This document shows, piece after piece, positions 30,911-55,471 of a DNA stretch of 64,000 nt (positions within the stretch are counted from its first letter, which is position 1; each line of letters begins with the position of its first letter). The notes beneath the pieces were generated by a model. That model saw nothing but the letters and a program-made list of their open reading frames with translations, had not been told where the DNA came from and made no database searches. The DNA is from Klebsiella aerogenes KCTC 2190 (GTDB taxonomy: Bacteria; Pseudomonadota; Gammaproteobacteria; Enterobacterales; Enterobacteriaceae). A program made the translations under genes and the position numbers. The stretch lies in assembly GCF_000215745.1 (NCBI RefSeq), contig NC_015663.1, positions 2,542,001-2,606,000 of the forward strand. The letters are read 5' to 3'.

Positions 30911-30939
30911 CATCCGCTTCCTGCCGCGGGAAGCGGATG
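30911..30939. terminator. Hairpin between crl and the exopolysaccharide operon
   Basis: CATCCGCTTCC pairs with GGAAGCGGATG around TGCCGCG. It lies between two convergent gene ends. T tracts are absent, so it is called as a weak bidirectional terminator. Confidence 0.55.
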
Positions 30940-30984
30940 ACCGCCAACGATGATACTTGACATCAGGTCACGGCGCTTCAGCCG

Positions 30985-31506
30985 TTATTCCTGCACTTCG
31001 CGATGAGTTGACAACACCCGGAATGGCTGGCCGACCACTACCTGCCCGGCGGCCAGATCTTTCGTCACCACGGTACCCGCGCCAATTTTGACATTATCAC
31101 CCAACGTCACCGGGCCGATGACCACCACGTGGGCGCCGAATTCGACGTTATTGCCAATCATCGGGCTTGCCCCTTCGCGGCCTTCGCTATCCGTCAGGCT
31201 GCCGATGGTGGCTCCCTGACGCAGGATACAGTTTTCACCGATGACGGTGCCGCGGTTGAGGACGATGCAGTGTGGATGGTACAGCCTCAACCCGTAGCCG
31301 ATCCGCGTTTGCCACGGTAGTTCGACGCAAAACAGACACTCGTTAATCAGTTTATTGAGAATAACGAATGGAATGCCGAGCAGCTTGTAAAACGGGTTGC
31401 GGCTGCGATACATCGTCGCGAGGCGATAGAGCAGAATCGCGATTTTCGCCTTCATACTGCCGGTATGTTTGATCTCGCGGCGGACCTGGCTGATGGCATT
31501 AGGCAT
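30985..31506 (-). CDS. Serine acetyltransferase-like hexapeptide acyltransferase (EPS)
   Basis: This 173-residue protein has left-handed beta-helix hexapeptide repeats from about residue 80 to 150 (GTVIGENCILRQGATIG, then NVKIGAGTVVTKD). An N-terminal helical region of about 65 residues resembles CysE/WcaB-type acetyltransferases. As the last gene of the operon it probably O-acetylates a sugar of the exopolysaccharide. GGAG lies 6 nt before the ATG, and 11 nt separate it from the preceding gene. Confidence 0.8.
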   Translation of the reverse strand: MPNAISQVRREIKHTGSMKAKIAILLYRLATMYRSRNPFYKLLGIPFVILNKLINECLFCVELPWQTRIGYGLRLYHPHCIVLNRGTVIGENCILRQGATIGSLTDSEGREGASPMIGNNVEFGAHVVVIGPVTLGDNVKIGAGTVVTKDLAAGQVVVGQPFRVLSTHREVQE

Positions 31507-31517
31507 GAATTCTCCGT

Positions 31518-32933
31518 TTACTTAAGGGAAAAGGTGGTCAGTTGATACCAGCCGTCGGCGGTTTTACCCTGGTTGGCCAGCAGCAGCCGCGGCTTACCCT
31601 GGGCATCGGTGATGGCGGTCTGCAACGCGTAATCGCCGGCGGGCAGCGAGGCGGGTAGCGTGAGAGTGACAGTGCTTTGCATCTCCCCCGGCAGCCAGCG
31701 GCGCACGTCATCCTGGGTTTTTACCTGGGTAACCGTGGCGCCGGCGGCGTTGACCACGCGCCATTGTACCGGGTAGAACAGGTAGGCCGGGGCGACGCCA
31801 TCATTACGCCAGGTAACACTGACCGCTAACGGCTTACCAGCCTTAACCGGCGTTTCGAAGGCGAGTTTGTTGACCCGGAAACGGTAGCCGATTCGCAGTA
31901 AGGCTTTATCGACAATATCGCGGTATTCCGGCGGAATCGGTCGTGATTTCAGGTTCAGGCTGCTGGCGTGTTGCTGTAGCGCCCAGTCGAAGGTGGCCTG
32001 CACCTCTTCACGCGTGTAGTGCTGTACGCTCTGCCATTCGCTCATATAGCCGCAGATCTCAAGGCTGACGGGCGCCCGTTTCCAGCTATCGACAAACCCC
32101 GGCGCCGCGGCCTGAGCGGCGGCCAGACGCTGCGGATAATCATCGCGCATATGGCTCCATTCGCTGGAGAAGTTATGCCAGTCGCCCCAGCAGTCCGCCC
32201 GCCAGCCCGCGCCGCGGCGGCTGGCCCAGGCCAGCGAATCGCCGCCGCTAATCAGCATGACTTTCGGCGTTTTCGGGAAGCTATCGAAATGCATATCAAC
32301 ATAGCGATTGAGCTGCTCCGGCGTGTACTTCTCCATTAACGGCGGAATCTCGCTAAAGTTGGAGTTGTGCCATTCGCCCCAGGAGCCGACCATGCCGATA
32401 TCGATAAAGGCCAGTTCCGGGTTGCCGTCATAGCGCTGACCGAGGGCATTCAGCAGTTTCTGCGCATAGGCGATAAAAGTTGGATCGCTGAGATCCGGCA
32501 CGAAGGTTTTACCGTCGGCGACCCACTGTCCTTTGATCCCTTTGGCGATCAGCCAGTCGGGAATTTTCGATCCCGTTTGCGGCTCGTCGAGCGCCATTAC
32601 CCGCAGGCCGACGTTCATGGCTGGCTGATGGCTGGCGGCGACGCTAAAAGCATTATCGATCGGCGCGAAATTGTAGACCCCTTCCTGTGGCTCCAGCTCG
32701 CTCCAGTAGAAGCGATCGTATTCAAAACCGGTATCGGGATACTCGGCGCGGGTCGGTTTTTCACCATAGCCATCATGAAAGCTGGCGACGCCGATGCCCG
32801 GATTGGTGAGCAGGCCATCGAAAGGAGGCGGGGTGATGACCGTGGTTTGCGCGCCAACGGATGCTGACGCCAGCGCGCTGGCCAGTAGCAGGGCGCGAAA
32901 CAGAGGAGCGCTATGCAGAGATAATATCGCCAT
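31518..32933 (-). CDS. Secreted DUF4832-like protein (putative glycoside-hydrolase fold)
   Basis: This 471-residue exported protein has a signal peptide ending near residue 28 (SASVGA). Residues 30-330 look like a TIM-barrel glycosidase-type domain with acidic clusters (YWSELEPQEGVYNF; FIDIGMVGSWGEWH; SLEICGYMSEWQS). A beta-sandwich DUF4832-type domain covers about 340-470. The ATG at 32933 replaces a TTG two codons earlier. Inside an exopolysaccharide operon it is a candidate periplasmic hydrolase or polysaccharide-modifying enzyme. Family membership is from memory and the catalytic residues are not proven. Confidence 0.65.
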   Translation of the reverse strand: MAILSLHSAPLFRALLLASALASASVGAQTTVITPPPFDGLLTNPGIGVASFHDGYGEKPTRAEYPDTGFEYDRFYWSELEPQEGVYNFAPIDNAFSVAASHQPAMNVGLRVMALDEPQTGSKIPDWLIAKGIKGQWVADGKTFVPDLSDPTFIAYAQKLLNALGQRYDGNPELAFIDIGMVGSWGEWHNSNFSEIPPLMEKYTPEQLNRYVDMHFDSFPKTPKVMLISGGDSLAWASRRGAGWRADCWGDWHNFSSEWSHMRDDYPQRLAAAQAAAPGFVDSWKRAPVSLEICGYMSEWQSVQHYTREEVQATFDWALQQHASSLNLKSRPIPPEYRDIVDKALLRIGYRFRVNKLAFETPVKAGKPLAVSVTWRNDGVAPAYLFYPVQWRVVNAAGATVTQVKTQDDVRRWLPGEMQSTVTLTLPASLPAGDYALQTAITDAQGKPRLLLANQGKTADGWYQLTTFSLK

Positions 32934-32940
32934 ACTCAAT

Positions 32941-33354
32941 TCACTTTGTCATGTGGTCATGAAGATTAACAAACCACGTCCAGATACCGACGTGGAAATT
33001 TTTAAATACATCAATGCCTAACGCTGATTTCAACATATAGAGCGCCAGTAGGATCGACAGCAGGGCGAACACCACGCCAAGCGTAATCAGCAGCGTCGCG
33101 AAGATGCGTCCGAACAGAGTGCTTTCGCGCGAAACTTTGCGCAGATCCCGACCAAAAAGAAATACCACGAAATAGCGGCGATGCAGGAAGGGAAAGCTGT
33201 GGCGAAAATCGATGCGATGGCGTGACGCCAGGTTGGCGCGCACCAACGCCTGCTCGATTCCCCGTTTCTGCTCCGCGGTTAATGAGGTTTCAACCTCCTG
33301 GTCAAGCGCGGCATAGAAGCGCTCGACCACCAGTTCTGCTGTAGATTTCGGCAC
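32941..33354 (-). CDS. Small membrane protein of unknown function (EPS operon)
   Basis: This 137-residue protein is not recognised. It has a soluble N-terminal part of about 80 residues (acidic, then basic: RHRIDFRHSFPFLHRRYFV), one long hydrophobic segment at about 83-112, and a short tail. The GTG at 33354 was chosen because AGCAGG lies 7 nt upstream and 11 nt separate it from the preceding gene; the open frame to 33582 overlaps the glycosyltransferase. Its place between glycosyltransferases and the secreted protein suggests a role in assembly or modification. Confidence 0.6.
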   Translation of the reverse strand: MPKSTAELVVERFYAALDQEVETSLTAEQKRGIEQALVRANLASRHRIDFRHSFPFLHRRYFVVFLFGRDLRKVSRESTLFGRIFATLLITLGVVFALLSILLALYMLKSALGIDVFKNFHVGIWTWFVNLHDHMTK

Positions 33355-33365
33355 GAGTAACCTGC

Positions 33366-34466
33366 TTACGTTAAGCGCTGATAGACTTGCGCGGTTTGCG
33401 CGGCGATTTCCGGCCAGCGGTACTTCGGCATAAACTGGCTGTAATCCGCTTTTTCTCCTGCGACCCATTGTTGCAGTTTCTGCGTCAGACCCGGAACGTT
33501 GCCGACGGGAAAGTAGTCCGCTGGCGGCAGGCCAATTTCTAGGTTGGCCGGAATGTCGCTGACCACCACCGGCAGTGACCACGACATGGCCTCCAGCAGC
33601 GCGATCGGCAATCCTTCATGATAAGAGGGCAGCACGAATAGCCCGGCCTGCGAGAACAGCGTATGCAGCGGCGCGCCGCTGATAAAGCCTGTGAGGATGA
33701 CGTTTGGCGTGGCGGTCGCCTGTTGCTTCAGGCGCTCGCTATATTCATCGGCGTGGTCGGCATCGCCAATGAGCACCAGCGGTACCGAACACCCGGCGGC
33801 GGCATAGGCGGCAACGAGATCGTGCAGTCCTTTCTCTTCGACAAAACGGGCCACGGCAACGATATACTGGCCCGGTTTTAGACCGTATTTATCGAGGATC
33901 TCTGCCTGCCGATCCGCAGGAGGCAGGTCGGCCTGACGCACGCCGTTGTAGATAACATGGGCGTTATGGCGGCCATGCTTGTGCTTAATCAGATTATTGA
34001 TGACCTCGGAAATGACGATCACTTCATTGGCGTATTTCACCGCCCATTTTTCGCCAAGGCGCAGCATCTCTTTGGCCATCCGGCCCCATTTCTGCCGATC
34101 GTAATCCGGGCCATGATGGGTAAAGACGACGCGTTTTCCCAGCAGACGCAGCAACGGCACCACCAGGCCGGGGCCGACGGCGTGAACGTGAACCACGTTG
34201 GAGCCGTCGAATAAGGTACTGAACGCCGCCAGCGCCGAGTGAATAATAGCCTCGAATTTACGGCTTTTCGGCGCCCACAGACTCTTGAGTTTAACGCCCT
34301 GATATTCGCTGCGTCGGTAGTTCACATAGGGCGAGCGGGCGATCACGCAGACTTCCGCGCTGCCCTGGCGATAGATTTCCGGGTATAAATTCTGGCAGTG
34401 AGTTTCGACGCCGCCCTGCACATCGGGGATCCCGCGCGTGCCTAATACCGTGACGTTGATGGTCAT
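33366..34466 (-). CDS. Glycosyltransferase family 4 (EPS)
   Basis: This 366-residue GT-B glycosyltransferase shows the N-terminal GTRGIPDVQGGVETHC segment (residues 9-24) common in rhamnosyl- and related transferases. The GT4 donor-site motif PSYHEGLPIALLEAM lies near residues 278-292. It probably adds one sugar to the lipid-linked repeat unit on the cytoplasmic face. The start overlaps the previous gene by 4 nt (ATGA), consistent with coupled translation. Confidence 0.85.
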   Translation of the reverse strand: MTINVTVLGTRGIPDVQGGVETHCQNLYPEIYRQGSAEVCVIARSPYVNYRRSEYQGVKLKSLWAPKSRKFEAIIHSALAAFSTLFDGSNVVHVHAVGPGLVVPLLRLLGKRVVFTHHGPDYDRQKWGRMAKEMLRLGEKWAVKYANEVIVISEVINNLIKHKHGRHNAHVIYNGVRQADLPPADRQAEILDKYGLKPGQYIVAVARFVEEKGLHDLVAAYAAAGCSVPLVLIGDADHADEYSERLKQQATATPNVILTGFISGAPLHTLFSQAGLFVLPSYHEGLPIALLEAMSWSLPVVVSDIPANLEIGLPPADYFPVGNVPGLTQKLQQWVAGEKADYSQFMPKYRWPEIAAQTAQVYQRLT

Positions 34467-35677
34467 TTTTTCTCCCCGACAAGTTGTTCATAAAGCGCCT
34501 GCAGCACCTGCATGTGGCGGGCGAGATCGTATTTTTCTTCCAGCCGCTGGCGGGCGTTAATTCCCATATTGCGGGCCAGCTCAGGGTCTGCAGCCAGTTT
34601 GTCCATCAGTTGCGCCAGCGCGTCGCTATTGCCGGGTTCAACCAGATAGCCGTCGACGCCGTCACGGATCTGTTCCGGGATACCGCCAATATTGCCGCCG
34701 ATCACCGGGCGGCCAAAAGCCATGGCTTCGAGCACCGACATGGAGCAGTTTTCATAATATTCAGAGGGGACGACTACCGCTCGGGCCCCGCGAATAAGGT
34801 TATTCAGCTCCTCGCCGTGTTTCATATAGCCGAGGAACTGCGGGCCGTTGAAGCGCGCGCGTAGGTCTGCGCCCAATGGGCCATCGCCGACAATCTTAAG
34901 CGGCATCGCCTCCTGCATTTTTTGCTGCGCCTGCGCCAGAGTCGGTACGCCTTTTTCCCGGCTCAGACGGCCAATATAGAGAAAATAGTCGCCCGCAGTT
35001 TCGCCGGGGACGGTGCTATTGGCATCAATACCGTTGACGATCACTTCAATGCGGGCGTCGGGCAGCTTACGCAGCAGGGTCTGGCGCATAAACTCGCTTG
35101 GGGCGATGATACAGTCGAGCATGGCGTAATTTTTGGCGAACTTCTGCCAGTAGGCCTCCAACGATAGCAGCAGACTTTTGAAAGTATCGCCCTGCTGGCA
35201 GCGGTGACGAAAAGCGTTGATCACTGACCCGGTCAGACACTCTTCGCAGACATGACCATCGCGCAGCATGGTGTACGAAGGACAGACGATTTTGTAATCG
35301 TGGGCGGTGAGTACCGTTTTGCAGCCAAAGCGTTTCGCCACGCCGATAACGGCAGGCGTAAGCTGATGATAGATATTATGAAAATGAACAATATCCGGCC
35401 GCTCGCGCAACAAAAGCGTGTTGAGCTTCGCGCAGGCCTCGGCATTATAAATAAAGTCCACCCCAGCTTTGATTTTGCTCATCAGGCCGTGGCTGTCGTG
35501 GTAATCGACGTTATGGACGAAAAATTCCTCCCACGGCGACGGTTTATTTTCCGCGTGCAGCATGCTGAAGTCGACCACCTGGTAGCCGGCTTGCAGCATC
35601 GCGTCGCGTTCCTGAAAATAAACGGTTTCCGCGCCGCCTTTGATAAAGAAGAATTTGTTAACGAAGAGAATTTTCAT
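34463..35677 (-). CDS. Glycosyltransferase family 4 (EPS)
   Basis: This 404-residue GT-B enzyme starts MKILFVNKFFFIKGGAET, an N-terminal acceptor-side motif. The donor-site signature PSEYYENCSMSVLEAMAFGRPVI lies near 310-332. A CxxC-rich segment (VCEECLTGS near 140) is typical of one GT4 subgroup. The ATG at 35677 was chosen over 35689 by homology to family N-termini. It overlaps the preceding GT2 gene by 20 nt. The sugar specificity is unknown. Confidence 0.83.
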   Translation of the reverse strand: MKILFVNKFFFIKGGAETVYFQERDAMLQAGYQVVDFSMLHAENKPSPWEEFFVHNVDYHDSHGLMSKIKAGVDFIYNAEACAKLNTLLLRERPDIVHFHNIYHQLTPAVIGVAKRFGCKTVLTAHDYKIVCPSYTMLRDGHVCEECLTGSVINAFRHRCQQGDTFKSLLLSLEAYWQKFAKNYAMLDCIIAPSEFMRQTLLRKLPDARIEVIVNGIDANSTVPGETAGDYFLYIGRLSREKGVPTLAQAQQKMQEAMPLKIVGDGPLGADLRARFNGPQFLGYMKHGEELNNLIRGARAVVVPSEYYENCSMSVLEAMAFGRPVIGGNIGGIPEQIRDGVDGYLVEPGNSDALAQLMDKLAADPELARNMGINARQRLEEKYDLARHMQVLQALYEQLVGEKK

Positions 35678-36683
35678 TTTCAGTATCAATATGCTGTGGA
35701 TTCGAGACGGTCACCGCCGGGCGTTTCATCGGATCGCGCACTGAATTAATCACCCCGCGCAGCAGCCCCGCTGAAAATAGCGATAAGTTAATCGCGCTCT
35801 GCACGCCATCGCGCAGCGATTTATTTTTAATGGCCTTCAGAGCGATAAACGCCAGCAGCGGCAGCAGGGCAATGGCGATAACCTTGCCATTGAAGGTCAG
35901 TAGACAAATCAGTAAAACCAGCAGATAGAGGGTGAAGAGCAGCTCATTACGTACAATCCGCAGCGCCGCCGGGAAATGGGCTTTACCCCAGCAGTTTCGG
36001 AGCAACTCGCCCGGCGCCCACAGAAAGCCGTTCTTCCAACGGTAGGCCAGCATTTTAAAGGTTGGCATGGTGTAAGAAGCGTGGCTAAAGTAGGGTGCCG
36101 CCAGGCGATGCAGTTTGTAACCTGCTGCTTGTAAACGAATGCCCAGCTCCGCTTCTTCGTAGCCGTGCAGGTTGAGGTTGGTCAGATAGCCGATTTTCGC
36201 GATCGCTTCACGACGATACAGGCCGCCGCCGCCCAGATGATCGGTGTCGCCCTGTGGATAGATCAGATGCAGGCGCTGCTTGCGCGATTTGAACTCATAG
36301 TTAGAGGCATCATCCATCTCGACGCTGCCGGCGACTCCCGCGTACTCCGGATGCGTTTCCAGGAATTCGACCGCGGTATCCAGAAAGCCCGGCTCCAGCT
36401 CCATATCGCCATCCAGCAGCAGCAGATAATCGCCTTCGCTATACAGCCAGCCCAGCTGGTGGCCGATACCGCAGCAGCGGTCGGCGGCGTTATCCAGACA
36501 CACCACCATCGCGCCTTTCGCGATAGCCAGTTCGCGGGTGTTATCCGTTGATAAGCTGTCGGCGACGATGATTTGATGCGGGTACGGTTGCAGCTGTTTG
36601 CGCACGCTATCGATCGTTTTCTCGATGCCCTGCGCTTCGTTCAGGGTCTTGATGCTGACGGTAATGGATGGCGTTTTATTCAT
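35658..36683 (-). CDS. Glycosyltransferase family 2 (EPS)
   Basis: This 341-residue GT-A enzyme shows the nucleotide-binding start VSIKTLNEAQGIEKTIDSV and the metal motif LLLLDGDMELEPG near residues 88-100. HGYEEAELGIRL is the ED-type catalytic segment. One or two membrane segments at about 255-290 anchor it. The ATG at 36683 overlaps the end of the polymerase gene by 8 nt (ATGAATAA); a longer frame begins at 36725 inside that gene. Confidence 0.84.
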   Translation of the reverse strand: MNKTPSITVSIKTLNEAQGIEKTIDSVRKQLQPYPHQIIVADSLSTDNTRELAIAKGAMVVCLDNAADRCCGIGHQLGWLYSEGDYLLLLDGDMELEPGFLDTAVEFLETHPEYAGVAGSVEMDDASNYEFKSRKQRLHLIYPQGDTDHLGGGGLYRREAIAKIGYLTNLNLHGYEEAELGIRLQAAGYKLHRLAAPYFSHASYTMPTFKMLAYRWKNGFLWAPGELLRNCWGKAHFPAALRIVRNELLFTLYLLVLLICLLTFNGKVIAIALLPLLAFIALKAIKNKSLRDGVQSAINLSLFSAGLLRGVINSVRDPMKRPAVTVSNPQHIDTENENSLR

Positions 36684-38058
36684 AGTGGGTACCGGAGTTA
36701 AGACGGACAGCGCGGTGGATGACAATCAGCGCCCCAAGGGATAACCATAATAAAAACTGTAGCATGGGAATGATCATCAGGATCTGGCTGTAGGGCAGGC
36801 TGAGCAGACAGCCGATAACAAAAACGTAGAACGCCGGCGCCGCGCTAAGGAGTTGCAGATCCTCAAGCTTGAGATCGTGGCGCGAAAAGGTCTCTTTCGG
36901 CCGCATGGCGACCAGGATTGAGGCGATGGTGCCAATGAACAGAATGATGCCGATAATCCCCACTTCCCACAGCAGCATGCTTAAGGCGGTGGAATCGAGG
37001 ATCAGGTGATACCAGACGCCGATATAGCCCGGCGAGACGGTACTGCCGCTGTTGGTGGCGTTAAGGCCGTAACCAAACAGCATGCCGCCAGGACCAAATA
37101 GTTCGTTATGCTGCAGCCAGAAGAAGAGGGTGGTAAAACGCCCCAATTCGCCGCTGGGCATAATGTAGTTAGTATCAAAAATATAGCCCAGCGAATCGAT
37201 AAACACCGACAGCGCGCTTTTGGTCGGGTCGCCGCCGAAGGCCGAGGAATAGTTGGAGGCCAACACGGTAATGGCGACAAAAATTAATAGCGCCATGCCG
37301 GCGGCGATGATCAGCAGCGATCGCAGGCTAACTTTACTCACGCCGCTTACGTAGCCGGGCAGGATCCATAGCAGGGCCAGCAGGAACGGCGATAGAAGAA
37401 TGACGAATTTTACTTCCCCCACTACGCAGAGGAAGAAACCCAGCGCGATGTGGATCACCAGCGATTTAAATGAGCAGATGCCGTGCTTAAACTCTGACAC
37501 TTTCATAAGCATGATCAGCAGACAGAACATCCCCATAGCCGCGGTGTTGCCGCCGCCCATCGGGTCGCCGCCGAAAGTGCCGACCACCGAGTCCCATTTC
37601 TCATCTTCGCCGCGAAATGCCACCCGTTTAGGCACCACGAAAATCACCTGATAGATAGCGACCGGGATCTGCGCATAGTAGATCCAGTAGAAAAGCCGCG
37701 TCAGACGGTACAGCTGTGATTCACTAAACATGCCCAACAGCATGCAGAACATCAGCAGCGAGAGCGCCAGCTCGTTTTTAAAGCCGACGATGGCGGTGAC
37801 GACCCCTGACTGTAGTACCGTTGAGACCAGCCCGAGTACGATAAAGGTCAGATACAGCGCCAGTATTAGCTTTTCCCGCCCGGTGAGCGCCAGCGGCTGC
37901 GGGCGGCTCTGCATCAGGAGCAGCACCGCCATCACCAGCACCAGAAAAAATGGCAGCCACAGCACGGCCGCGATACCGGTGAAATACTGGACCGTACCGC
38001 AGAACACCAGCGTCATCAGGGCATAGGCTTCGAGATAGCGGCCGGTGTTTAGCTGCAT
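36676..38058 (-). CDS. Wzy-like polysaccharide polymerase
   Basis: This 460-residue integral membrane protein has about 11 predicted transmembrane segments and one large periplasmic loop at about 265-360, the layout of O-antigen polymerases and ligases. In a Wzx/Wzy pathway it joins lipid-linked repeats at the periplasmic face. Sequence conservation is always low in this family, so the call rests on topology and on its place next to a flippase and a co-polymerase. It overlaps the flippase gene by 10 nt. Confidence 0.78.
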   Translation of the reverse strand: MQLNTGRYLEAYALMTLVFCGTVQYFTGIAAVLWLPFFLVLVMAVLLLMQSRPQPLALTGREKLILALYLTFIVLGLVSTVLQSGVVTAIVGFKNELALSLLMFCMLLGMFSESQLYRLTRLFYWIYYAQIPVAIYQVIFVVPKRVAFRGEDEKWDSVVGTFGGDPMGGGNTAAMGMFCLLIMLMKVSEFKHGICSFKSLVIHIALGFFLCVVGEVKFVILLSPFLLALLWILPGYVSGVSKVSLRSLLIIAAGMALLIFVAITVLASNYSSAFGGDPTKSALSVFIDSLGYIFDTNYIMPSGELGRFTTLFFWLQHNELFGPGGMLFGYGLNATNSGSTVSPGYIGVWYHLILDSTALSMLLWEVGIIGIILFIGTIASILVAMRPKETFSRHDLKLEDLQLLSAAPAFYVFVIGCLLSLPYSQILMIIPMLQFLLWLSLGALIVIHRAVRLNSGTHYE

Positions 38059-39266
38059 ATTTTCTGCTCCTGCAGCGAAAGCGTTTTCGCCCGCTGATTC
38101 ATTTTGAGCAAAATGAACAAGTAACGCGCGAAGGTCAGAAACGAGAAGGCCAGCAGGGCGATTTCATAACTGACGCCAAAGTACGGCAAGGCGATGAAGG
38201 CGATGACGATAATCAGCAACTGCTCAATCTGAATACGCAAAAAGTAGCGTCGGGAGCCGAAGATCAGTTCGATCACCGTCAGCGGGCTGACCGCCAGCGC
38301 GGCGAACAGATAAGGCAGCATGTAGCGCGAGGTGGGGATCGAATTCAGCCACTCCTCGCTAAAGCCCAGGCGCATCACCAGCGGATAGAAAATCCAGATA
38401 CCAAGGATGCACACCGCGGCGGCGCCCAGCAGCAGCAGGCGAACTTTTTTATATTCCGGATAGTTAAAGGTGCGGTTACGAAAATCCATCGACCATTTAG
38501 AAAAGATGGAGTTGCGCACGGCGTTACCGATAATCATCACCGGCGACAGGCAGAAACGGCTGACCACCGAAAAGTAGCCGGCGACCAGCGGCGAGAACCA
38601 GATGTTAATCAGCATCGTCGGCAGGTTATTACTGGCCATCGCCAGTACCTCGGCGCTGCCGACGCGGCTGATATGCTGCCAGTGCTCGCGTAAAAAACGT
38701 ACATTCGTCGCAATCGAAAAGTGGCGCAACGTTAAGCTTTTGAAGTTAAACAGGCGAATCAGGCAGGCGACCAGCAGCAGCAGGATGCCGACCATCCACG
38801 CCAGATAAAACAGCGTTGGGTTGGGCATCACCAGCAGCGCAATAGCGACCACCAGCGACACCGCAATGCGCTGGAAGGTCAGGAAAGGATAGTTACCGCC
38901 GCGCAGGGAAAGGTTTTCCGCCACCAGCACCAGCGCATAGCCAAAGGTCAGCAAATAGAGAAACGCAATGTTAAGTTCGAAGATAAGCCCGGTGATGACC
39001 GCCCAAGGGAGGGCCATCAGCAGACTCTGCAGTAGGCAGAACACTACGTTTTGCCCAAGCTCGTGATCCTCCTGACGGGGGATTAGCAACTGCGAGGCAA
39101 AGGTACAGACCTGCGCGCCGATCAGTACATTGCTGTAGATCATCGCGTAATGGCCGACCTCCGCCATCCCATAGCGATGAGAGATAAGCCAGACCGAAAA
39201 GGCGCCGATCAGCTGCGAAAGCACCGATGAACTGGCGATGGATGAAATACTCTTAATCAGATTCAT
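38049..39266 (-). CDS. Wzx-like oligosaccharide flippase
   Basis: This 405-residue membrane protein has about 12 transmembrane segments and the N-terminal SSIASSSVLSQLIGAFSVWLIS segment typical of the MATE/MOP-type polysaccharide transporters. It would flip the undecaprenyl-linked repeat unit across the inner membrane. It lies between the co-polymerase and polymerase genes and is separated from the former by 5 nt. Confidence 0.82.
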   Translation of the reverse strand: MNLIKSISSIASSSVLSQLIGAFSVWLISHRYGMAEVGHYAMIYSNVLIGAQVCTFASQLLIPRQEDHELGQNVVFCLLQSLLMALPWAVITGLIFELNIAFLYLLTFGYALVLVAENLSLRGGNYPFLTFQRIAVSLVVAIALLVMPNPTLFYLAWMVGILLLLVACLIRLFNFKSLTLRHFSIATNVRFLREHWQHISRVGSAEVLAMASNNLPTMLINIWFSPLVAGYFSVVSRFCLSPVMIIGNAVRNSIFSKWSMDFRNRTFNYPEYKKVRLLLLGAAAVCILGIWIFYPLVMRLGFSEEWLNSIPTSRYMLPYLFAALAVSPLTVIELIFGSRRYFLRIQIEQLLIIVIAFIALPYFGVSYEIALLAFSFLTFARYLFILLKMNQRAKTLSLQEQKICS

Positions 39267-39271
39267 AGGCG

Positions 39272-41359
39272 CTATTTCGGAGCAATGAGTTCGTGCATCT
39301 GGCGCTCAAGCAGGCGTTTACCTTCCTGCGTTTCCAGGTGTTCTTCGCGCACCTGGTTAAGCACGCTCGCCACCCGGCTACTACCCGCGCTCTGCAGACG
39401 TTGTTCCGCTTTGCGGATCTGCGGAGCCTGCTCGCCGGCCTTCACCACCAGCAGAGTCATATCGCTTTGTGCCGCCAACAGCAGGCTATCCTGAGCCTGG
39501 TTCAGCGCCGGGGCGTCGATGATTAGCGTATCGTAAGTTTGATGCAACGTTGCCAGCAGCGCCGGCAGGCGTTCAGAGGTGAGCAACAGCAGCGAAGAGT
39601 CGTTGAGCTTGCCGCGGGGTATAAAGTCCAGTTGATCATCCAGTTTGACGACGGACTGCTCCGGCATGCACTCGCCGTTCAGCAATTGACTGAAGCCCTG
39701 TTTATGTTGAGGAAATTTCGCCGATAACCCCTGAGTCGCCAGGTAGTCGAGGTCAATCAGCAGCGTTTTACGCGATTTGCTGGCTGAGCAGGCCAGCAGT
39801 TCGGCAATATACGAACTGCCGGAGCGGGATTGTACCGAAGTCACCAGGATGGTGGCGGGTTTATCGCGCTTATTGAGCAACGCCAGCCGCAGGCTGTGGA
39901 TCATATCGGCGTAGAGCACGTTATGGAAAATCTGCTGCGCGTTTTCCAGATGCGCCAGTAGCGGAAATTCGCCGCTGGCCTCGAGGGCGGTTTTCGCTTT
40001 GAGCTCGCTGAGGCTATTCACCGTTTTATCCAGCGCGGTACTGACTATCAGGTACATGATATACAGCGCCAGCGCCATCAGGGTAATCATCACGATCAAC
40101 AGGCCGCGCTGGGGTTTAGATGGACGATCCGGCGGTACGGCGGCGTCGTAAATGACTTCATCCGGTACCGAGAAGGTCTCTGACAATTTCTGCTCGTTAG
40201 CGCGCTGGTACAGTGATTTATAAAGCTCTTCGGTTTTATTCAGCGCGGTGGTCATGGTGTTGTACTGGTCGCGCTTGGCGCCGAGCGCCTGGAAATCGGC
40301 CTTCTGATCGTTGAGCATTTTTTGGTAGTGCTGCTCATCGTCGAGGGCGATTTGATACTGCTGGCGCAGGCCGTTAAACAGCTCGCCCAATACCTGGCCG
40401 AGCTGGGCATTCACCGCCTGCAGCTGCGCCTGGGCCTGCAGATATTTCGGATGCTGCGGGCCGTAGTGTTTGGCCGCTTCGGAAAGATTGCGCCGGGTCT
40501 GGATGAGGGCAATGCGTAAATCCTGCACCTGCGGATGGCCGGAGATTTCCGGCAGCGAGATAATCTGCTCTACCGGTTTACCCTGCTGGCGGCGGACCTT
40601 GTCCCATACCGTCTGCGCTTTCAGACGACGCTGGGTGGCGTCGGCCAGATGGTTAATCACAATCCCCAGCCGCTCGGTCTCATAACCATCCATGCTGCGG
40701 AAGGTTAGTAATCCGTTCTGCTTGAGGAAGTTATCGATGTCCGCCTTCTGCTGATCCATTTTGGTTTTCAGGTCATCCATCATTTTTTCGTTCCAGCCCT
40801 GCGCCTGAAGCAAGGTGTTTTGCTTCTGCTGCAGGCTGTAATCGATGAAGGCCTGGGCGACGCCGTTGGCGATATCGGCGGCTTTCTGCGGTGATTTCGC
40901 TTCCATCGATACGGCAACCAGTTGGGTGGTGCGTACGCCGGAAATGGTCAGGCTTTTTTGCAGCGCCTGAATAGCATTATTAATACGCGCGGTTTCGTCG
41001 AGATTATCGCCGCCGTTAAATTCGCTATCCTGCTCCAGCTTTAATTTACGCACCGCGGCATCGAGCACTACTCGTGACCCCATTAACGCGTACTTGGTCT
41101 CGTAGTAATCGCTGCGCGTGGAATCGTAGTTTTCCAGTCGCGGCAGAGGAGAGACGTCCTGCGACTGCGCTTTGAACAGTACGGTAGCGGTCGCCGTGTA
41201 GCTGGAAGACATAAAGCGCGTCAGAATAAATGACGCCACGGCGGCGACAATCACCACCGCCAGGCACCAGATAAGCTTGTGCTTAATTTTGTTGAAATAA
41301 GGCGTGAAGTCGATAAAGCCTTCTTTCTTTTTCGCGTTTTCGACCAGTGAAATTGCCAT
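39272..41359 (-). CDS. Wzc-like polysaccharide co-polymerase with degenerate kinase domain
   Basis: This 695-residue inner-membrane protein has the Wzz/PCP domain between two transmembrane helices (about 29-48 and 420-440), with long coiled-coil segments near 180-390. The cytoplasmic part resembles a BY-kinase, but the Walker A region (about 507-517) reads TSVQSRSGSSY, with Ser in place of the essential lysine. Walker A' is reduced (IDLDY) and Walker B is kept (IIDAPA). The C-terminus contains no tyrosine cluster. It should set polymer length without autophosphorylation. No Wzb-type phosphatase gene is present nearby. Confidence 0.85.
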   Translation of the reverse strand: MAISLVENAKKKEGFIDFTPYFNKIKHKLIWCLAVVIVAAVASFILTRFMSSSYTATATVLFKAQSQDVSPLPRLENYDSTRSDYYETKYALMGSRVVLDAAVRKLKLEQDSEFNGGDNLDETARINNAIQALQKSLTISGVRTTQLVAVSMEAKSPQKAADIANGVAQAFIDYSLQQKQNTLLQAQGWNEKMMDDLKTKMDQQKADIDNFLKQNGLLTFRSMDGYETERLGIVINHLADATQRRLKAQTVWDKVRRQQGKPVEQIISLPEISGHPQVQDLRIALIQTRRNLSEAAKHYGPQHPKYLQAQAQLQAVNAQLGQVLGELFNGLRQQYQIALDDEQHYQKMLNDQKADFQALGAKRDQYNTMTTALNKTEELYKSLYQRANEQKLSETFSVPDEVIYDAAVPPDRPSKPQRGLLIVMITLMALALYIMYLIVSTALDKTVNSLSELKAKTALEASGEFPLLAHLENAQQIFHNVLYADMIHSLRLALLNKRDKPATILVTSVQSRSGSSYIAELLACSASKSRKTLLIDLDYLATQGLSAKFPQHKQGFSQLLNGECMPEQSVVKLDDQLDFIPRGKLNDSSLLLLTSERLPALLATLHQTYDTLIIDAPALNQAQDSLLLAAQSDMTLLVVKAGEQAPQIRKAEQRLQSAGSSRVASVLNQVREEHLETQEGKRLLERQMHELIAPK

Positions 41360-41360
41360 A

Positions 41361-41915
41361 TCAGAAGAAACTCATGCCAATAATGATGGTATCTCCTGCC
41401 TGCACGGCGGAGTCGGCGGCGACATTTTCCAGCAGCCTTCCGCCGCGGGCCTGTCGAATTTGAATATCATGACGATCGGCGCGGTCGGTGAAACCGCCGG
41501 CCAGGGCGATGGCTTTTTCCGCCGTTAAACCCGGCTCCCAGGCATAACCATCCGGTTTTTTCACTTCGCCGAGCAGATAAACTTTGCGGTATTCGGCGAT
41601 GCTCACCGTGACCATCGGCGCCTGTAGGTAGTTACCGCGCAGTTTATCGGCGATTTCATTACTCACCTGTTCAGGCGTTTTGCCTTTTAACAGCAGCGAT
41701 CCGATATAGGGGTAATCAATGCTGCCGCTATTATCGATTTTTACCCGCATCGTCAGATCCTGCTCCCCGGAGACCGCAATATTGACTTCATCGCCCTGGT
41801 CCAAAAGGTAGACGGCGTCCGGCGGCGTTTTAATGGTCTGCGGCGGCGTCGAACAGCCCGCCAGCAGTAGCGCCAGCAGCGGAAGCATCACCAGTGTCCT
41901 GTTTAAAAAGGTCAT
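41361..41915 (-). CDS. Short OPX (Wza/GumB-type) polysaccharide export lipoprotein
   Basis: This 184-residue lipoprotein has the lipobox LLLAGC with Cys21. It contains the Poly_export domain (LDQGDEVNIAVSGEQDL near 38-54) and one SLBB domain (VYLLGEVKKPDGY near 113-125). It is about half the length of Wza and lacks the C-terminal helix that forms the outer-membrane pore. It must therefore work with another pore, most plausibly the beta-barrel encoded just upstream. It overlaps that gene by 4 nt (ATGA). Confidence 0.87.
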   Translation of the reverse strand: MTFLNRTLVMLPLLALLLAGCSTPPQTIKTPPDAVYLLDQGDEVNIAVSGEQDLTMRVKIDNSGSIDYPYIGSLLLKGKTPEQVSNEIADKLRGNYLQAPMVTVSIAEYRKVYLLGEVKKPDGYAWEPGLTAEKAIALAGGFTDRADRHDIQIRQARGGRLLENVAADSAVQAGDTIIIGMSFF

Positions 41916-43198
41916 AGTTGTACCTGCGTCATAAAAATAATGGCCGAATCGTCGTAGCCCAGGGTGCGGTCAACCGCATGCGAGTAGTCCGGGCCAATAT
42001 AAAAAGTGTCCGTATCTTTATTTGAGTGCATGGTGTTCCATTGCAGCTTCAGCTTAAAGTTAACCGATGGTCGGAAATCATAGTTAAAGGTCAGCGACAG
42101 CAGATTAGACTTATCTTTGCGCTTATTACTCTGATGCTTATAGTCTTCAGTGATATATGAATAATCGACCAGAGTTGAGAAACGATCCACCAGCCAGTGA
42201 TGTTCATAGCCGACGCCGAAATTCGACACCAGGATATAGCCGCCGGAGTCGGTGGGGTCCTTGATGCGCTGGGAGCTGTGTAGGTTAACTTTCATTTGTT
42301 CCAGCGGTTTCCAGTCGGCGTTGATATCCCAGTTCAGGCCGTTAAAACCCTGTGAGTCCGGGTTATGGATAAAGTCTTTGTAGAGCCAGGCGACGTTACC
42401 GTTAATCTCCGTTTTACCCGACAGGCGATTCTTCATGCCGACCAGTAGATAATACTCATTGCTGTCTTTTAACGGATTCAGCTCGTAGCGGCGCTGGTTG
42501 GTGATAAAGCTATAGCGGTAGCGCAGCGTTTTGGCTTTCTGGTCAAACACTTCGGCCACCAGGCTGTTTTCATGCCACTCCTGATCGTGCATGTAATAGT
42601 TAAAGTCATCGCTGGCGTCTTTGATGCTGTCGAGGTCGCGAAAGCGCAATTGTTTATGCAGTAGCGCGACTTCAACTTTACCGCGCCCTTCCGGCGCGCC
42701 GTAGCTGTAACGCAGCTCGCTGTTAAAGAAGCGGGTGCCGATCGGCTTGTTGATGCCAAACTCTTTAAACTGCTCGGGCAAAAAGCCTTCGGTGGTGTCG
42801 CGGCCGCGCTCTTCATGACCCAGCGTCTCATCGAGATCCAGCGACAGCCCGTGCATGCTGCCAAATCGCCACTTGCCGTTAAACATAAAAAAATGGTTGT
42901 TGCGATTATCTGCGCTATCGTTGCCATAGTTGCGGTAATCGCCGGAATACATCAACAGGTAGCGGTCTTCATAACGTTCGCCGATAGCTTTGACGACAGG
43001 CTTAATATTCTGGTAGCTGGAGCCGATTTTATTTTGGTCGTAACGCTGCCAGGTCACGTTGTCATCGTAACCGATGTCATAACCCAACTGGCTCTCGAAA
43101 TCGATGCCGGCAACCCCGGTATGCGGTTTTGCCTGCAGGTCTGCGTGTGCATAAGGCACAGACAGCAAACCGGCCAGAACGGCGAACCTAGAACGCAT
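41912..43198 (-). CDS. Outer-membrane beta-barrel protein, BBP2-like (EPS export)
   Basis: This 428-residue protein has a signal peptide ending at AHA (about residue 19) and many alternating amphipathic strands rich in Tyr and Trp. It ends in a hydrophobic strand (MTQVQL). It resembles the putative beta-barrel porin family found with capsule and exopolysaccharide genes. It likely provides the outer-membrane pore for the short OPX protein. The ATG at 43198 was preferred to a TTG at 43210. It overlaps the preceding gene by 11 nt. Confidence 0.75.
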   Translation of the reverse strand: MRSRFAVLAGLLSVPYAHADLQAKPHTGVAGIDFESQLGYDIGYDDNVTWQRYDQNKIGSSYQNIKPVVKAIGERYEDRYLLMYSGDYRNYGNDSADNRNNHFFMFNGKWRFGSMHGLSLDLDETLGHEERGRDTTEGFLPEQFKEFGINKPIGTRFFNSELRYSYGAPEGRGKVEVALLHKQLRFRDLDSIKDASDDFNYYMHDQEWHENSLVAEVFDQKAKTLRYRYSFITNQRRYELNPLKDSNEYYLLVGMKNRLSGKTEINGNVAWLYKDFIHNPDSQGFNGLNWDINADWKPLEQMKVNLHSSQRIKDPTDSGGYILVSNFGVGYEHHWLVDRFSTLVDYSYITEDYKHQSNKRKDKSNLLSLTFNYDFRPSVNFKLKLQWNTMHSNKDTDTFYIGPDYSHAVDRTLGYDDSAIIFMTQVQL

Positions 43199-44591
43199 TT
43201 TTGCCAACAAAGCCCCGGAAGAAAGTCAAAAAGACGATTTTGAGATCGAGGAACAGCGACCACGACTGGATGTAGGCCAGGTCGTACTGAATTCGCTTCT
43301 CCATTTTGTCCAGTGTGTCGGTCTCACCGCGGAAGCCGTTAATCTGCGCAAGTCCGGTGATACCTGGTTTAACCTTATGGCGAATCATGTAGTTCTCCAC
43401 CAGCACGCGATACTGCTCGTTATGCGCCACCGCGTGCGGGCGGGGACCGACGATCGACATCCGCCCCTGTAGCACGTTGAAAAACTGCGGCAGTTCATCC
43501 AGTGAGGTTTTACGCAAAAACGCGCCGAATTTGGTAATTCGCGGATCGTTGCGTGTCGCCTGAGTGACCACGGCGCTATTTTCCATGACCCGCATGGTTC
43601 TGAATTTCCAGACTTCTATTTGTTTACCGTTGAGGCCATAACGATTCTGTTTAAATAAAATCGGCCCCGGAGAGGTGAGCTTGATACCAATCGCCACAAA
43701 CAACATCGCCGGCAGGCTAATTAAGGTAAAGAAAGAACCGAGAATGATATCTTCAATACGCTTGATGATTGCCCCTTCGCCATCAAAAGGCGAAGTGAAG
43801 ATACTGATAGTTTGCAGATTGCCGAACATGCGCAGCTGGGAAATATGTGAGCTGTAAGAGAACAGGTCCGGTACCAGGAATACATCGACGGTTGTGTCAG
43901 AGAATTCATTGAGAAATTGCTTAATGCGCTGCTGTGCAACCATGGGGAGCGCGATATAAATTTCATCAACGTCGCCTGTCTTCGCCAGAGCCAGCAGATC
44001 GCGCGAGTTGCCTTTTCTTTCAATACTCATCAGCCGGCTATCTCGCTGGTTGTTGCGGTCTTCAAAATAGCTGATGATGATACCGCGTTGTGAGTACTCT
44101 TTTTGTAAAGCCTGCTCGATGGCCAGGCCCGCGGGCGTAATACCGAGAATCGCGACCCGTAACACCGAGTTAAACAGATAATGGGCAGTGATTGCCCGCA
44201 CCACGAAGACAATGAGAAATATAAATATTGAGCATTTCGCCAGACTGGCGGCCAGCGGAATAAAATTAACGACTGATTGCGTATTAATTAACCACTCGGC
44301 GACGACGAAAAATAAGAATGAAACAATACTGCTAAGGCATACGCTTAAAATAAGCGCTGCTGATTTTGTGAAATAGTGCCCTTTAAATTGTCCTGAATAC
44401 AAATGAAAATACTCATTAATTCTTATAAATACTAATGAATAGATAATTCCAACGAGCGCGGAAGCGGTTGTGGGTTCAGTATAAAAATATTTTAAATAGA
44501 TAAAAATCAAAACGTTGACGGTGAGAAAGTCCAGTAGTTTTATCAACTTGCTATAACGGGAATGATAAATTTTTATATTGTTATCTGCCAT
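43188..44591 (-). CDS. Undecaprenyl-phosphate sugar-phosphotransferase (WcaJ type)
   Basis: This 467-residue polyprenyl sugar-phosphotransferase starts repeat-unit synthesis by moving a sugar 1-phosphate to undecaprenyl phosphate. Four N-terminal transmembrane helices (about 15-135) and a CoA-binding-like domain precede a hydrophobic segment at about 280-300 and the catalytic domain (KFRTMRV; LRKTSLDELPQFFNVLQG; SIVGPRPHAV; KPGITGLAQINGF). Glucose is the usual substrate of WcaJ-like members, but this is inferred. It is the first gene of the operon. Its 5' half is clearly more AT-rich than the rest. Confidence 0.9.
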   Translation of the reverse strand: MADNNIKIYHSRYSKLIKLLDFLTVNVLIFIYLKYFYTEPTTASALVGIIYSLVFIRINEYFHLYSGQFKGHYFTKSAALILSVCLSSIVSFLFFVVAEWLINTQSVVNFIPLAASLAKCSIFIFLIVFVVRAITAHYLFNSVLRVAILGITPAGLAIEQALQKEYSQRGIIISYFEDRNNQRDSRLMSIERKGNSRDLLALAKTGDVDEIYIALPMVAQQRIKQFLNEFSDTTVDVFLVPDLFSYSSHISQLRMFGNLQTISIFTSPFDGEGAIIKRIEDIILGSFFTLISLPAMLFVAIGIKLTSPGPILFKQNRYGLNGKQIEVWKFRTMRVMENSAVVTQATRNDPRITKFGAFLRKTSLDELPQFFNVLQGRMSIVGPRPHAVAHNEQYRVLVENYMIRHKVKPGITGLAQINGFRGETDTLDKMEKRIQYDLAYIQSWSLFLDLKIVFLTFFRGFVGKNAF

Positions 44592-44961
44592 TTTTTGCTC
44601 GTTTAAAATGAGTTATTTAAACATCGTTATGCTATTTTTTAAACTAACTGGAAAGCCTGATAATCATTCACATTTGCAATAAATGGTTATCAATCATCAT
44701 TGTAGACTATGAGTTGAGTAGTGTCGACCAATCTCAGTTTAAAAATAAAACTGCTTTTTAATGTTCTTTATGAGACTTATTTAAGCGGTATAGAGGGGGA
44801 TTAATACCGAAGTATTATTTGTTGATGAGCGTAAACGCAGAGAGGAATGCAAGGGACAGGGTTAATTGCAAGTGAAACAATCGGCGGCTGGAGAGTGAGA
44901 ATTCTTAGCCCCCGGCCAACTCAAGATGCTGAGTCGCCGGGGCTCTGAAGGGGACCCGACT
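44592..44961. promoter_or_regulatory. AT-rich leader of the exopolysaccharide operon
   Basis: The 370 bp between the operon and the small DUF1471 gene are about 30% GC over 44581-44820. That is the type of DNA bound by H-NS. It should contain the operon promoter reading leftward. A short dyad TAATAC-GTATTA occurs at 44802-44817. No JUMPstart/ops element was found on the minus strand. No gene is supported. Confidence 0.5.
44907..44944 (-). terminator. Hairpin after the DUF1471 gene
   Basis: AGCCCCCGGC-ACTCA pairs with TGAGT-GCCGGGGCT in an interrupted long stem 17 nt past the stop at 44962. The trailing sequence is U-poor on the minus strand. Confidence 0.55.
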
Positions 44962-45174
44962 TTACTTGTACAGTTCCGCGCTCATCGTCATCTTATTCCC
45001 CATATGGGCGCTGGTGATTTTATAATCAGTCGCATTCAGCTCTTTCGCTTTTTTGGCAATCACCGCTTCAGCGGAGTCAAGGGTATTACCGGTTGCAGTC
45101 ACGCTATGCGCGGAAGCGGTAAAGGCAAAAAGTGAAAGTGCGGCTGCGGAAAAAATAGTCGATACGGTTTTCAT
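44962..45174 (-). CDS. Small periplasmic DUF1471 (YdgH/BhsA/McbA-like) protein
   Basis: This 70-residue protein has a signal peptide of about 22 residues (AFTASA) and a mature domain VTATGNTLDSAEAVIAKKAKE...YKITSA typical of the BhsA/McbA/YhcN family. Members are induced by stress and influence biofilm formation and envelope permeability in E. coli; the exact role here is unknown. The ATG at 45174 was chosen because AGGA lies 8 nt upstream; the ATG at 45180 would be only 2 nt from it. It is a single-gene unit next to the exopolysaccharide promoter region. Confidence 0.85.
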   Translation of the reverse strand: MKTVSTIFSAAALSLFAFTASAHSVTATGNTLDSAEAVIAKKAKELNATDYKITSAHMGNKMTMSAELYK

Positions 45175-45296
45175 GTTCATAATCCTGTTAAGTTGTTTCG
45201 TTAACGTTGCCCGTTGCAACGTGATGGCGTAAAGGATAGGTCCCGCCCGTTGTCTGAAAAAGAGGGCAACGGGCAATAGACTTTTCTTCTTTTGTT

Positions 45297-45323
45297 CATA
45301 AAAGGAATGGCCTGGCCATTCCT
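45297..45323 (-). terminator. Terminator of the AKR-SDR-SRPBCC operon
   Basis: On the minus strand AGGAATGG and CCATTCCT form a stem followed by TTTATG, 9 nt after the SRPBCC stop. A second GCCCGTTG/CAACGGGC dyad lies further on at 45245-45274. Confidence 0.7.
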
Positions 45324-45331
45324 GGCAACAA

Positions 45332-45748
45332 TCAGGCGCTAAAGTTATTTTTCAACGCCTGCAGGCCGTCGCGATAAATACCGCTAAACAGCGCTTCGGC
45401 ATCCGCGTCGCTGACGTTAACCGGCGTGAAGCTGCCGGACCACTCAACGCGGGTGATATTGCTGTCGGCAGTTGCCACTACCGCGATAGTGGAGAGGTAA
45501 TCCACGACCGGGAACGGCGCCAGGATTATCGAGTAGCTATAGCTGCGCTGGCGGTTATCAAACGCTTCCAGACGTTCAATGACCGTGCCGCCATCGGATG
45601 TGGTCAGCGTACGCACGCGTCCCCCTTCGCTCACCACGCTTTTCGGGATGAACGGCAGCCAGTCGGGCAGCGAGTCAAAGCCGCCCATCAGTTGCCAAAC
45701 CTGGTCGACAGAAGCCGGGATTTCGATAGATACAGTGGTAGTAGCCAT
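45332..45748 (-). CDS. SRPBCC-fold (polyketide cyclase/START-like) protein
   Basis: This 138-residue protein has the SRPBCC helix-grip start VSIEIPASVDQVWQLMGGFDSLPDWLP and the C-terminal helix DGLQALKNNFSA, enclosing a hydrophobic cavity. Such proteins bind or cyclise small lipophilic ligands. It is the third gene of an operon with an aldo-keto reductase and a short-chain dehydrogenase, so a shared small-molecule pathway is likely, but the substrate is not evident. Confidence 0.83.
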   Translation of the reverse strand: MATTTVSIEIPASVDQVWQLMGGFDSLPDWLPFIPKSVVSEGGRVRTLTTSDGGTVIERLEAFDNRQRSYSYSIILAPFPVVDYLSTIAVVATADSNITRVEWSGSFTPVNVSDADAEALFSGIYRDGLQALKNNFSA

Positions 45749-45780
45749 TTTATTTCTCTCTTTATTTCAGATAATTAGAA

Positions 45781-46578
45781 TTACATTGCCAGGGTGTCGA
45801 CGACGCCGCCATCGACGCGCAGCGCCGCGCCAGTGGTGGCCGACGAGAGCGGCGAGGCGAGATATACCGCCAGGTTCGCCACTTCGTCGACGTCCGCCGC
45901 CCGCTGGATAATCGAGCTTGGGCGTGCGGTCTTCACAAATTCATCAGCCTGCTCACGCGGGCTGCGGCCAGATTGCGTAGCGGCTTCCGCCAGCATCTCC
46001 TGCAAACCTTCAGTGAAGGTGGGGCCAGGTAGAATGGCGTTAACGGTGACGCCGGTACCGGCGAGCCGTTTCGCCAGTCCGTGGGAGACCGCGAGGTTGG
46101 CGCTTTTGGTCACGCCGTAGTTGATCATGTCGGCAGGAATCGCGACGCCGGATTCCGAGGAGACGAAAATAATGCGTCCCCAGCCGTTATCGATCATCCC
46201 CTGCGCGTAGTGGCGCGACAGGCGCACGCCGGAAAGCACGTTGACGTTATAAAAGTGCAGCCACTCGCTATCCGGCACGCTAAAGAAATCTTTATCGTTA
46301 AAGATGCCGAGGTTGTTAACCACCACATCAGCATGCGGCTCGGCGGCGAGCAGCGCGCTGACGCCTTCTTCAGTGCTAAGGTCGGCGACCACCCCGCGCA
46401 GCTGCGCATCGGGGTATTCGGCATTAATCGCCGCTATGGCGGTATCAACACCGCGCCGTTGACGGCCGACGATGACCACGGTCGCGCCCGCCCTGGCAAG
46501 GCCTTTAGCGATGCCCAGTCCGATGCCGGAAGTGGAGCCGCTCACCACGGCGACTTTATGGGTTAGATCCAGTTTCAT
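45781..46578 (-). CDS. Short-chain dehydrogenase/reductase (SDR)
   Basis: This 265-residue classical SDR has the cofactor motif SGSTSGIGLG at 13-22 and NNLG near 88-91. The catalytic Ser lies in VSSESG (140-143), with Tyr154 and Lys158 in YGVTK. The C-terminal GAALRVDGGVVDTLA closes the Rossmann domain. The Arg pair after the second strand (GRQRRG) suggests NADP preference. The substrate is unknown. It is 44 nt downstream of the aldo-keto reductase and 32 nt upstream of the SRPBCC gene. Confidence 0.87.
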   Translation of the reverse strand: MKLDLTHKVAVVSGSTSGIGLGIAKGLARAGATVVIVGRQRRGVDTAIAAINAEYPDAQLRGVVADLSTEEGVSALLAAEPHADVVVNNLGIFNDKDFFSVPDSEWLHFYNVNVLSGVRLSRHYAQGMIDNGWGRIIFVSSESGVAIPADMINYGVTKSANLAVSHGLAKRLAGTGVTVNAILPGPTFTEGLQEMLAEAATQSGRSPREQADEFVKTARPSSIIQRAADVDEVANLAVYLASPLSSATTGAALRVDGGVVDTLAM

Positions 46579-46622
46579 GTTGTCTCTCTTGTTTTAAGAG
46601 GGGCCCTGCGGCCCCGCTACAA

Positions 46623-47633: not shown

Positions 47634-47782
47634 CTAAGATGTCCTCGATATTGGGTTCCCGTCTGGGAAGGGTTCTGTGCGGGCGATTTGTGCTGTCGCC
47701 CTGTGACGGAGATCACAATACCTTGCGGTGTTATGACTTGATAGGACATAATTCGTCTGACTTAAGTCCTTTGAGGTCTCAC
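47634..47782. promoter_or_regulatory. Divergent control region AKR operon / LysR regulator
   Basis: This 149-bp region separates two divergent genes. It holds short imperfect dyads, such as ATAGGACATAATTCGTCTGACTT near 47740-47765, that could serve a LysR regulator. No promoter can be assigned with confidence. Confidence 0.35.
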
Positions 47783-48676: not shown

Positions 48677-48695
48677 GAATATTCCTGGAATAGGG

Positions 48696-48720
48696 CGCGG
48701 CGGCAAGAAAATCCGCCGCG
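48696..48720 (+). terminator. Hairpin after the LysR gene
   Basis: CGCGGCGG pairs with CCGCCGCG around CAAGAAAAT, 19 nt after the stop codon. No T tract follows. Confidence 0.45.
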
Positions 48721-48784
48721 ATCCCTGTCTGCGCAGGAAAATCATGTTACCGTCAAATATTGACCCTAAAATTATAAGACCTTC

Positions 48785-49153: not shown

Positions 49154-49154
49154 A

Positions 49155-49847: not shown

Positions 49848-49892
49848 AGTCTTGCTCCTGAATACATTTCCCGGCCTGCGCCGGAAACAGGG

Positions 49893-51296: not shown

Positions 51297-51328
51297 TAAC
51301 CCCTTTTATTGTTTTTTGGCACCGTTTG

Positions 51329-51396: not shown

Positions 51397-51406
51397 TGCA
51401 GGAGTG

Positions 51407-52690: not shown

Positions 52691-52704
52691 GTCCTGCTCT
52701 CCTG

Positions 52705-54153: not shown

Positions 54154-54175
54154 AATCGCTTCCTGTCTTAAGGGG

Positions 54176-55444: not shown

Positions 55445-55471
55445 CCGCTCAATTCCTTCGCCTGAGAATCT

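Follow-up and report, generated by a model that had tools for sequence, protein, structure and literature searches.

A Probable Wzx/Wzy-Dependent Exopolysaccharide Operon of the Composite OPX/β-Barrel Export Type, with a Pseudokinase-Type Co-polymerase, in Klebsiella aerogenes KCTC 2190

Results and Discussion

Gene Content and Layout of the Operon

The window considered in this work is a stretch of 64,000 nucleotides from a genome that is a single contig of 5.28 Mb. Between positions 30985 and 44591 of this window, the minus strand carries twelve genes that run from a start at 44591 to an end at 30985, and every frame is open on checking of the ORFs and their translations. The distances between neighboring genes, taken from the longest frames, lie between −50 and +11 bases, with most neighbors overlapping, as had been described in an earlier reading of the letters (hereafter, the sequence-only reading), which noted twelve genes in one direction that mostly overlap or lie a few bases apart. 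In 5′ to 3′ order, the predicted products are a WcaJ-type phosphoglycosyl transferase (PGT), an outer-membrane β-barrel, an OPX lipoprotein, a co-polymerase, Wzx, a putative Wzy, a GT2 and two GT4 glycosyltransferases, a small membrane protein, a DUF4832 protein, and an acetyltransferase.

The first gene (43188–44591) encodes a predicted initiating PGT of the Und-P glucose-1-phosphate transferase type, which scores 497.6 bits against TIGR03023 (cut-off 410.75) and matches PF02397 with an E-value of 4.9e-67, whereas its score against PRK10124, a narrower WcaJ model, stays under the cut-off (431 vs 684). The initiating enzyme expected of a Wzx/Wzy pathway is thus present. The three glycosyltransferases comprise a GT2 enzyme of 341 aa (35658–36683; PF00535, E 1.1e-16), a first GT4 enzyme of 404 aa (34463–35677; PF00534, E 1.3e-31), and a second GT4 enzyme (33366–34466; PF00534, E 5e-22), and the operon closes with a predicted hexapeptide O-acetyltransferase (30985–31506; Hexapep, E 1.4e-13) that resembles WcaB and EpsC, its WcaB match (E 2.6e-27) lying under the cut-off of that model. 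The starts of the GT2 and first GT4 genes are more likely 36683 and 35677, respectively, than the TTG codons at 36725 and 35689 that the longest ORFs reach, and we moved both downstream because the start positions are conserved in relatives; the corrected lengths equal those of the corresponding genes of a published cluster, cps2 (1026 and 1215 bases). The barrel gene starts at either a TTG at 43210 or an ATG at 43198.

Conservation and Genomic Setting

Using the OPX protein as a query, we collected 20 loci in named genomes, 15 of which hold eleven of the genes in the order of the window, with the twelfth at or past the ends of the stretches. These 15 loci come from Klebsiella grimontii, K. 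michiganensis, and K. oxytoca (whose proteins are 77–91% identical to those of the window), Raoultella planticola, Enterobacter soli, Pluralibacter, two Pectobacterium, six Buttiauxella, and Enterobacteriaceae bacterium B14, and because several genera share this gene order, the operon is not a chance arrangement. The other five are Yersinia rohdei with ten genes, one Buttiauxella locus that runs off its contig, the rearranged locus of Enterobacteriaceae bacterium RIT691 (L009), a Shewanella locus with the export parts only, and a Pseudoalteromonas locus with less. RIT691 has its Wzy and GT2 genes downstream of the rest and in the reverse orientation.

Seven longer operon regions were also compared, four of which (L096, L097, L098, and L100) are already among the 20 named loci. 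All twelve genes are found in order in five of the seven; in L100 there are eleven, the acetyltransferase gene not being found in that region, and in L102 there are seven. The latter (G216 contig 1, 533500–553400) retains the PGT, barrel, OPX, co-polymerase, Wzy, and GT2 genes and one GT4 gene, and Wzx, the second GT4, the small gene, DUF4832, and the acetyltransferase were not found there. At E ≤ 1e-30, the OPX protein occurs in 19 of the 295 genomes of the family sample, and the co-polymerase occurs in five of 20 genus members (the present genome being counted in both cases); the operon is absent from the other 15.

The gene crl is present in all 20 genus members. The operon adjoins it in the window, in G664 and G668 and, by spacing, in G670; in G672, operon and crl both lie at contig ends. 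In the sister genome G001, about 120 bases separate the counterparts of window positions 30938 and 49158, and the same edges are juxtaposed in four of the 15 operon-free genus genomes, G001 among these; the operon is thus part of a present/absent block. This block, which reaches from crl to a GntR gene (30939–49157, 18.2 kb), holds five genes besides the operon, namely YdgH/BhsA-like, Polyketide_cyc2, SDR, aldo/keto reductase, and LysR genes. In G676, the YdgH-like, Polyketide_cyc2, and SDR genes directly follow crl.

Elsewhere in the window, the interval 49155–56458 contains a CsiD-family gene and a GntR regulator (Pfam), and the neighbors of CsiD are presumably counterparts of lhgO, gabD, gabT, and gabP. 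An EAL-domain protein (56711–57415) adjoins a fimbrial gene set with its usher at 58485–61088, and a LysR regulator near the window end (62826–63704), for which Pfam gives LysR only, is one we take to resemble AmpR. Two genes for tRNA-Asp that share an anticodon (293–369 and 9743–9819) lie about 9.4 kb apart.

Flippase and Putative Polymerase

Two polytopic proteins, each with about 10 predicted TM helices, follow the co-polymerase: one of 405 aa (38049–39266), for which scans of Pfam and NCBIfam gave no flippase family, and one of 460 aa (36676–38058), which matched no polymerase family in the Pfam scan. In profile–profile comparison, a profile of 11 sequences of the former aligned to 17 proteins of Polysacc_synt loci at 98.0% in hhalign (E 2.2e-13, 364 columns), against controls of 0.1–0.9% (Wzx profile against the Wzy_C set, 0.8%; Wzy profile against the Wzx set, 0.9%; barrel against either, 0.1%). 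Its assignment as a Wzx flippase of the MOP superfamily is thus well supported by profile homology. The other protein, kept in place in most relatives, reached 10.6% against the Wzy_C set, and we therefore name it a putative Wzy by topology and elimination. The full Wzx/Wzy pathway put forward by the sequence-only reading accordingly holds in its flippase, and its polymerase stays putative.

Export Parts: A Short OPX Protein and a Separate Barrel

At 184 aa, against 379 aa in the genome's Wza, the OPX protein (41361–41915) is short, and it begins with a lipobox-like N terminus (...LLAGC). A Poly_export domain at residues 32–106 (PF02563, E 1.3e-20) is followed by an SLBB domain at 111–159 (E 6.4e-11) and then by 25 residues, such that, judging from this domain layout, the protein appears to be of the D1D2 type, carrying the D1 and D2 domains alone and probably no C-terminal helix that spans the outer membrane.

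The gene immediately upstream (41912–43210) encodes a predicted outer-membrane β-barrel of the VpsM/Wzp/EpsX-like porin type, which matches PF10082 above its cut-off (E 2.5e-12) and EpsL TIGR03014 far under its cut-off (E 2.2e-8, 33.5 of 275 bits). Its AlphaFold2 model shows 18 strands of at least 10 residues, counted from the DSSP string, at a mean pLDDT of 75.3; this is the best of five models, the worst having 44.8, and the last strands lie near 50–70. TonB-dependent receptors are the best fold matches, with AlgE 42nd among the 50 matches listed. In the available text of the literature, composite export systems are delimited by an OPX protein of at most 280 aa and a coupled outer-membrane barrel gene within five genes of it; here, the OPX protein is well inside that length and the adjacent gene encodes a barrel whose predicted strand number falls within the 16–18 expected. 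The pairing of a short OPX protein with an 18-strand barrel is the published third export system (PMC9601211, PMC9603273).

A Co-polymerase without Kinase Motifs

The fourth gene (39272–41359) encodes a PCP-2 co-polymerase of 695 aa, with matches to Wzz (PF02706, E 1.5e-7) and to EpsF (TIGR03017, E 9.1e-38, yet under the cut-off), fused to a kinase-like domain that matches the Wzc, VpsO, CapB, and Etk kinase chains in a PDB sequence search. A canonical Wzc combines the Walker-A lysine with a tyrosine-rich tail, and the genome's own Wzc has both: its Walker-A motif is GKT, and seven tyrosines lie in its tail. The co-polymerase has neither: its Walker A reads GSS and its C-terminal tail contains no tyrosine, and it is, on these motifs, a predicted bacterial tyrosine (BY) pseudokinase of the PCP-2 type.

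To place this lesion among relatives, we counted the 20 named loci minus one without a co-polymerase and one without a kinase domain, leaving out rows L034–L037, which have the same length and identity as L003–L006. The Walker-A lysine is kept in none of the resulting 18 relatives, which are not independent because seven are Buttiauxella; the variants are GSS or GST in seven and GRS or GRT in eleven, and the tail lacks tyrosine in 17 and has one in the remaining relative. The lysine is likewise absent in L099 and L102. To judge from these alignments, the kinase loss is a trait common across genera and not strain damage. No low-molecular-weight (LMW) phosphatase was found among the twelve operon products in Pfam scans; the sole one found in the genome adjoins the canonical wza/wzc genes at 5.0 Mb, where the one canonical wza-wzb-wzc set of the genome lies, outside the operon.

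The sequence-only reading had singled out three points at which the operon differs from the E. coli group 1 capsule/colanic acid scheme, namely a half-length OPX lipoprotein, a separate outer-membrane barrel, and a co-polymerase with a broken kinase site, and had added that wzb is missing from the operon. The three departures are real, and the phosphatase search agrees with the fourth statement.

The DUF4832 Protein and the Small Membrane Protein

The sequence-only reading left the products of 31518–32933 and 32941–33354 without a role. The former has a signal-like N terminus, matches PF16116 (E 1e-19) and PF02449 (E 2.8e-6), and is 96% identical to a protein labeled Klebsiella variicola. Its predicted model (pLDDT 93.9) is a TIM barrel with a C-terminal β-rich domain and has fold matches to glycoside hydrolase (GH) enzymes, and conserved acidic residues are placed after strands 4 and 7, with E187 present in all 44 alignment rows and E292 in 43 of 44. 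The protein is thus modeled as a glycosidase-like TIM barrel, the likely enzyme class being glycoside hydrolase, although it could also be a binding protein that has lost activity. A predicted glycosidase-like fold and two conserved glutamates are now attached to this product.

The small bitopic protein, with one predicted TM helix at residues 87–105, matched no family in Pfam or NCBIfam scans, in keeping with its unassigned status; it nevertheless belongs to a large family, as 1531 proteins at E ≤ 1e-3 were obtained among 7998 candidates scored with its profile.

Proposed Mechanism and Alternatives

Taking these data together, we consider it highly probable that the twelve genes form an exopolysaccharide operon that works by the Wzx/Wzy route and whose export belongs to the third (composite OPX/β-barrel) type. 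The WcaJ-type enzyme would place glucose-1-phosphate onto Und-P, the three glycosyltransferases would build an approximate tetrasaccharide from housekeeping sugar nucleotides, and Wzx would flip this repeat unit for polymerization by the putative Wzy. The co-polymerase would steer the chain to a periplasmic short OPX ring, with the kinase-dead cytoplasmic domain as a scaffold, and the chain would exit via the separate 18-strand barrel, with the acetyltransferase decorating the polymer. PslG-type hydrolases trim or clear polymer in the periplasm, and the DUF4832 protein would probably act on periplasmic polymer in a similar fashion.

A more speculative extension, which we think improbable, would see in the operon an enterobacterial branch of EPS machines that run independently of phosphorylation: the fused, long-lived pseudokinase would be cycled by a partner such as the small bitopic protein rather than by a kinase/phosphatase pair, and the periplasmic hydrolase would clear stalled polymer. 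As an analogy, the small protein RmpD reportedly acts on Wzc in Klebsiella. In L102, however, the kinase lesion occurs without a small gene, which counts against a small-protein partner.

The presence in the genome of a canonical wza-wzb-wzc set with an intact Wzc would allow the co-polymerase to be phosphorylated or regulated in trans, and thus to depend on a kinase after all. We regard this as quite improbable, as the tail that would be the target is devoid of tyrosine both in the co-polymerase of the operon and in nearly all relatives counted, and the EcpK paper argues that pseudokinases act without active BY-kinases (PMC12004946). Loss of the kinase motifs could also be a sign of lost function in a decaying remnant, and the absence of the operon from most genus members, together with the family genome L102 that retains just seven of the twelve genes, would fit such decay. 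Against this, all twelve frames are intact, column identity averages 78% and 79% in the 11-sequence alignments of Wzx and Wzy, respectively, and the lysine loss is shared by every relative counted across several genera and is therefore old and compatible with selection; we find decay very improbable.

Finally, the published annotation of the counterpart operon names it "cps2" (PMC6258164), which raises the question of a dedicated capsule locus with a surface-held polymer rather than a released exopolysaccharide. Pfam scans found no Wzi family among the twelve products, and a canonical capsule-type region lies separately, elsewhere in the genome; neither point is decisive, and we consider a capsule locus unlikely, though less so than the alternatives above.

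If the composite export assignment is correct, the operon provides a tractable enterobacterial example of this export type, with the canonical Wza route in the same genome allowing side-by-side comparison. The analysis also suggests the class of enzyme to which a DUF4832 protein likely belongs, and it points to Klebsiella having, apart from the product of the classical capsule locus, a second extracellular polymer. The operon would be missed by a large Enterobacteriales survey, because the cps loci of that survey were defined by galF, gnd, and ugd.

Comparison with Known Systems

The operon shares PGT, Wzx, PCP, and OPX functions with the E. coli group 1 capsule/colanic acid (Wza-Wzb-Wzc) system. 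The latter differs in its long Wza with its own helix pore, active Wzc, and Wzb; the present genome has such a set elsewhere. In its export pair, it instead resembles EpsY/EpsX of Myxococcus xanthus and VpsN/VpsM of Vibrio cholerae, which combine a short OPX protein without an outer-membrane helix, as is predicted for the operon's OPX protein from its domain layout, with a coupled barrel in a Wzx/Wzy setting (PMC9601211, PMC9603273); this likeness is drawn from description rather than direct sequence comparison. The co-polymerase resembles EcpK/EpsV, HfsB/HfsA, and V. vulnificus VV1_2305, where a kinase-like domain is described without the Walker-A lysine or tyrosine tail (PMC12004946). EcpK and HfsB are stand-alone proteins, whereas the pseudokinase of the operon is fused, as in forms such as VV1_2305; because that paper discusses stand-alone forms and, citing Cuthbertson et al., fused ones, a fused pseudokinase co-polymerase is known in kind.

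By annotation only, the Vibrio vulnificus brp locus has the same cassette order of PGT, barrel, OPX, and co-polymerase, but differs in gene content past the cassette, and its co-polymerase is annotated as an autokinase; within brpABCD, brpA and brpD mutants appear from the accessible text to be without EPS (PMC9888727, PMC4094392).

The closest counterpart is cps2 of Klebsiella oxytoca DSM 29614 (BI322_RS19465–RS19520; PMC6258164, Table 3), with the same twelve-gene order and lengths equal or at most 15 bases apart. Its genes are annotated, in order, as WcaJ, CpsB, CpsC, co-polymerase, capsular polysaccharide protein, hypothetical, GT2, GT, GT, hypothetical, DUF4832, and WcaB-like, with the capsular polysaccharide protein at the place of Wzx, the comparison being one of order, annotation, and length only. 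An EPS made up of rhamnose, glucuronic acid, and galactose is described in the same source, which lists two clusters and, in the part available, does not tie the polymer to cps2. The sequence-only reading held that a gene-for-gene match to a characterized cluster would overturn it; cps2 supplies the match, but only half of that case is made, because cps2 is annotated rather than characterized and no polymer is assigned to it in the available text. The novelty that this reading implied does not stand, with the gene set already tabulated as cps2 and the export pair and fused pseudokinases in print. The export scheme and gene set are thus known in kind from the published text available, and the present analysis adds the shared kinase lesion, the predicted DUF4832 fold, the small-protein family, and the distribution within the genus.
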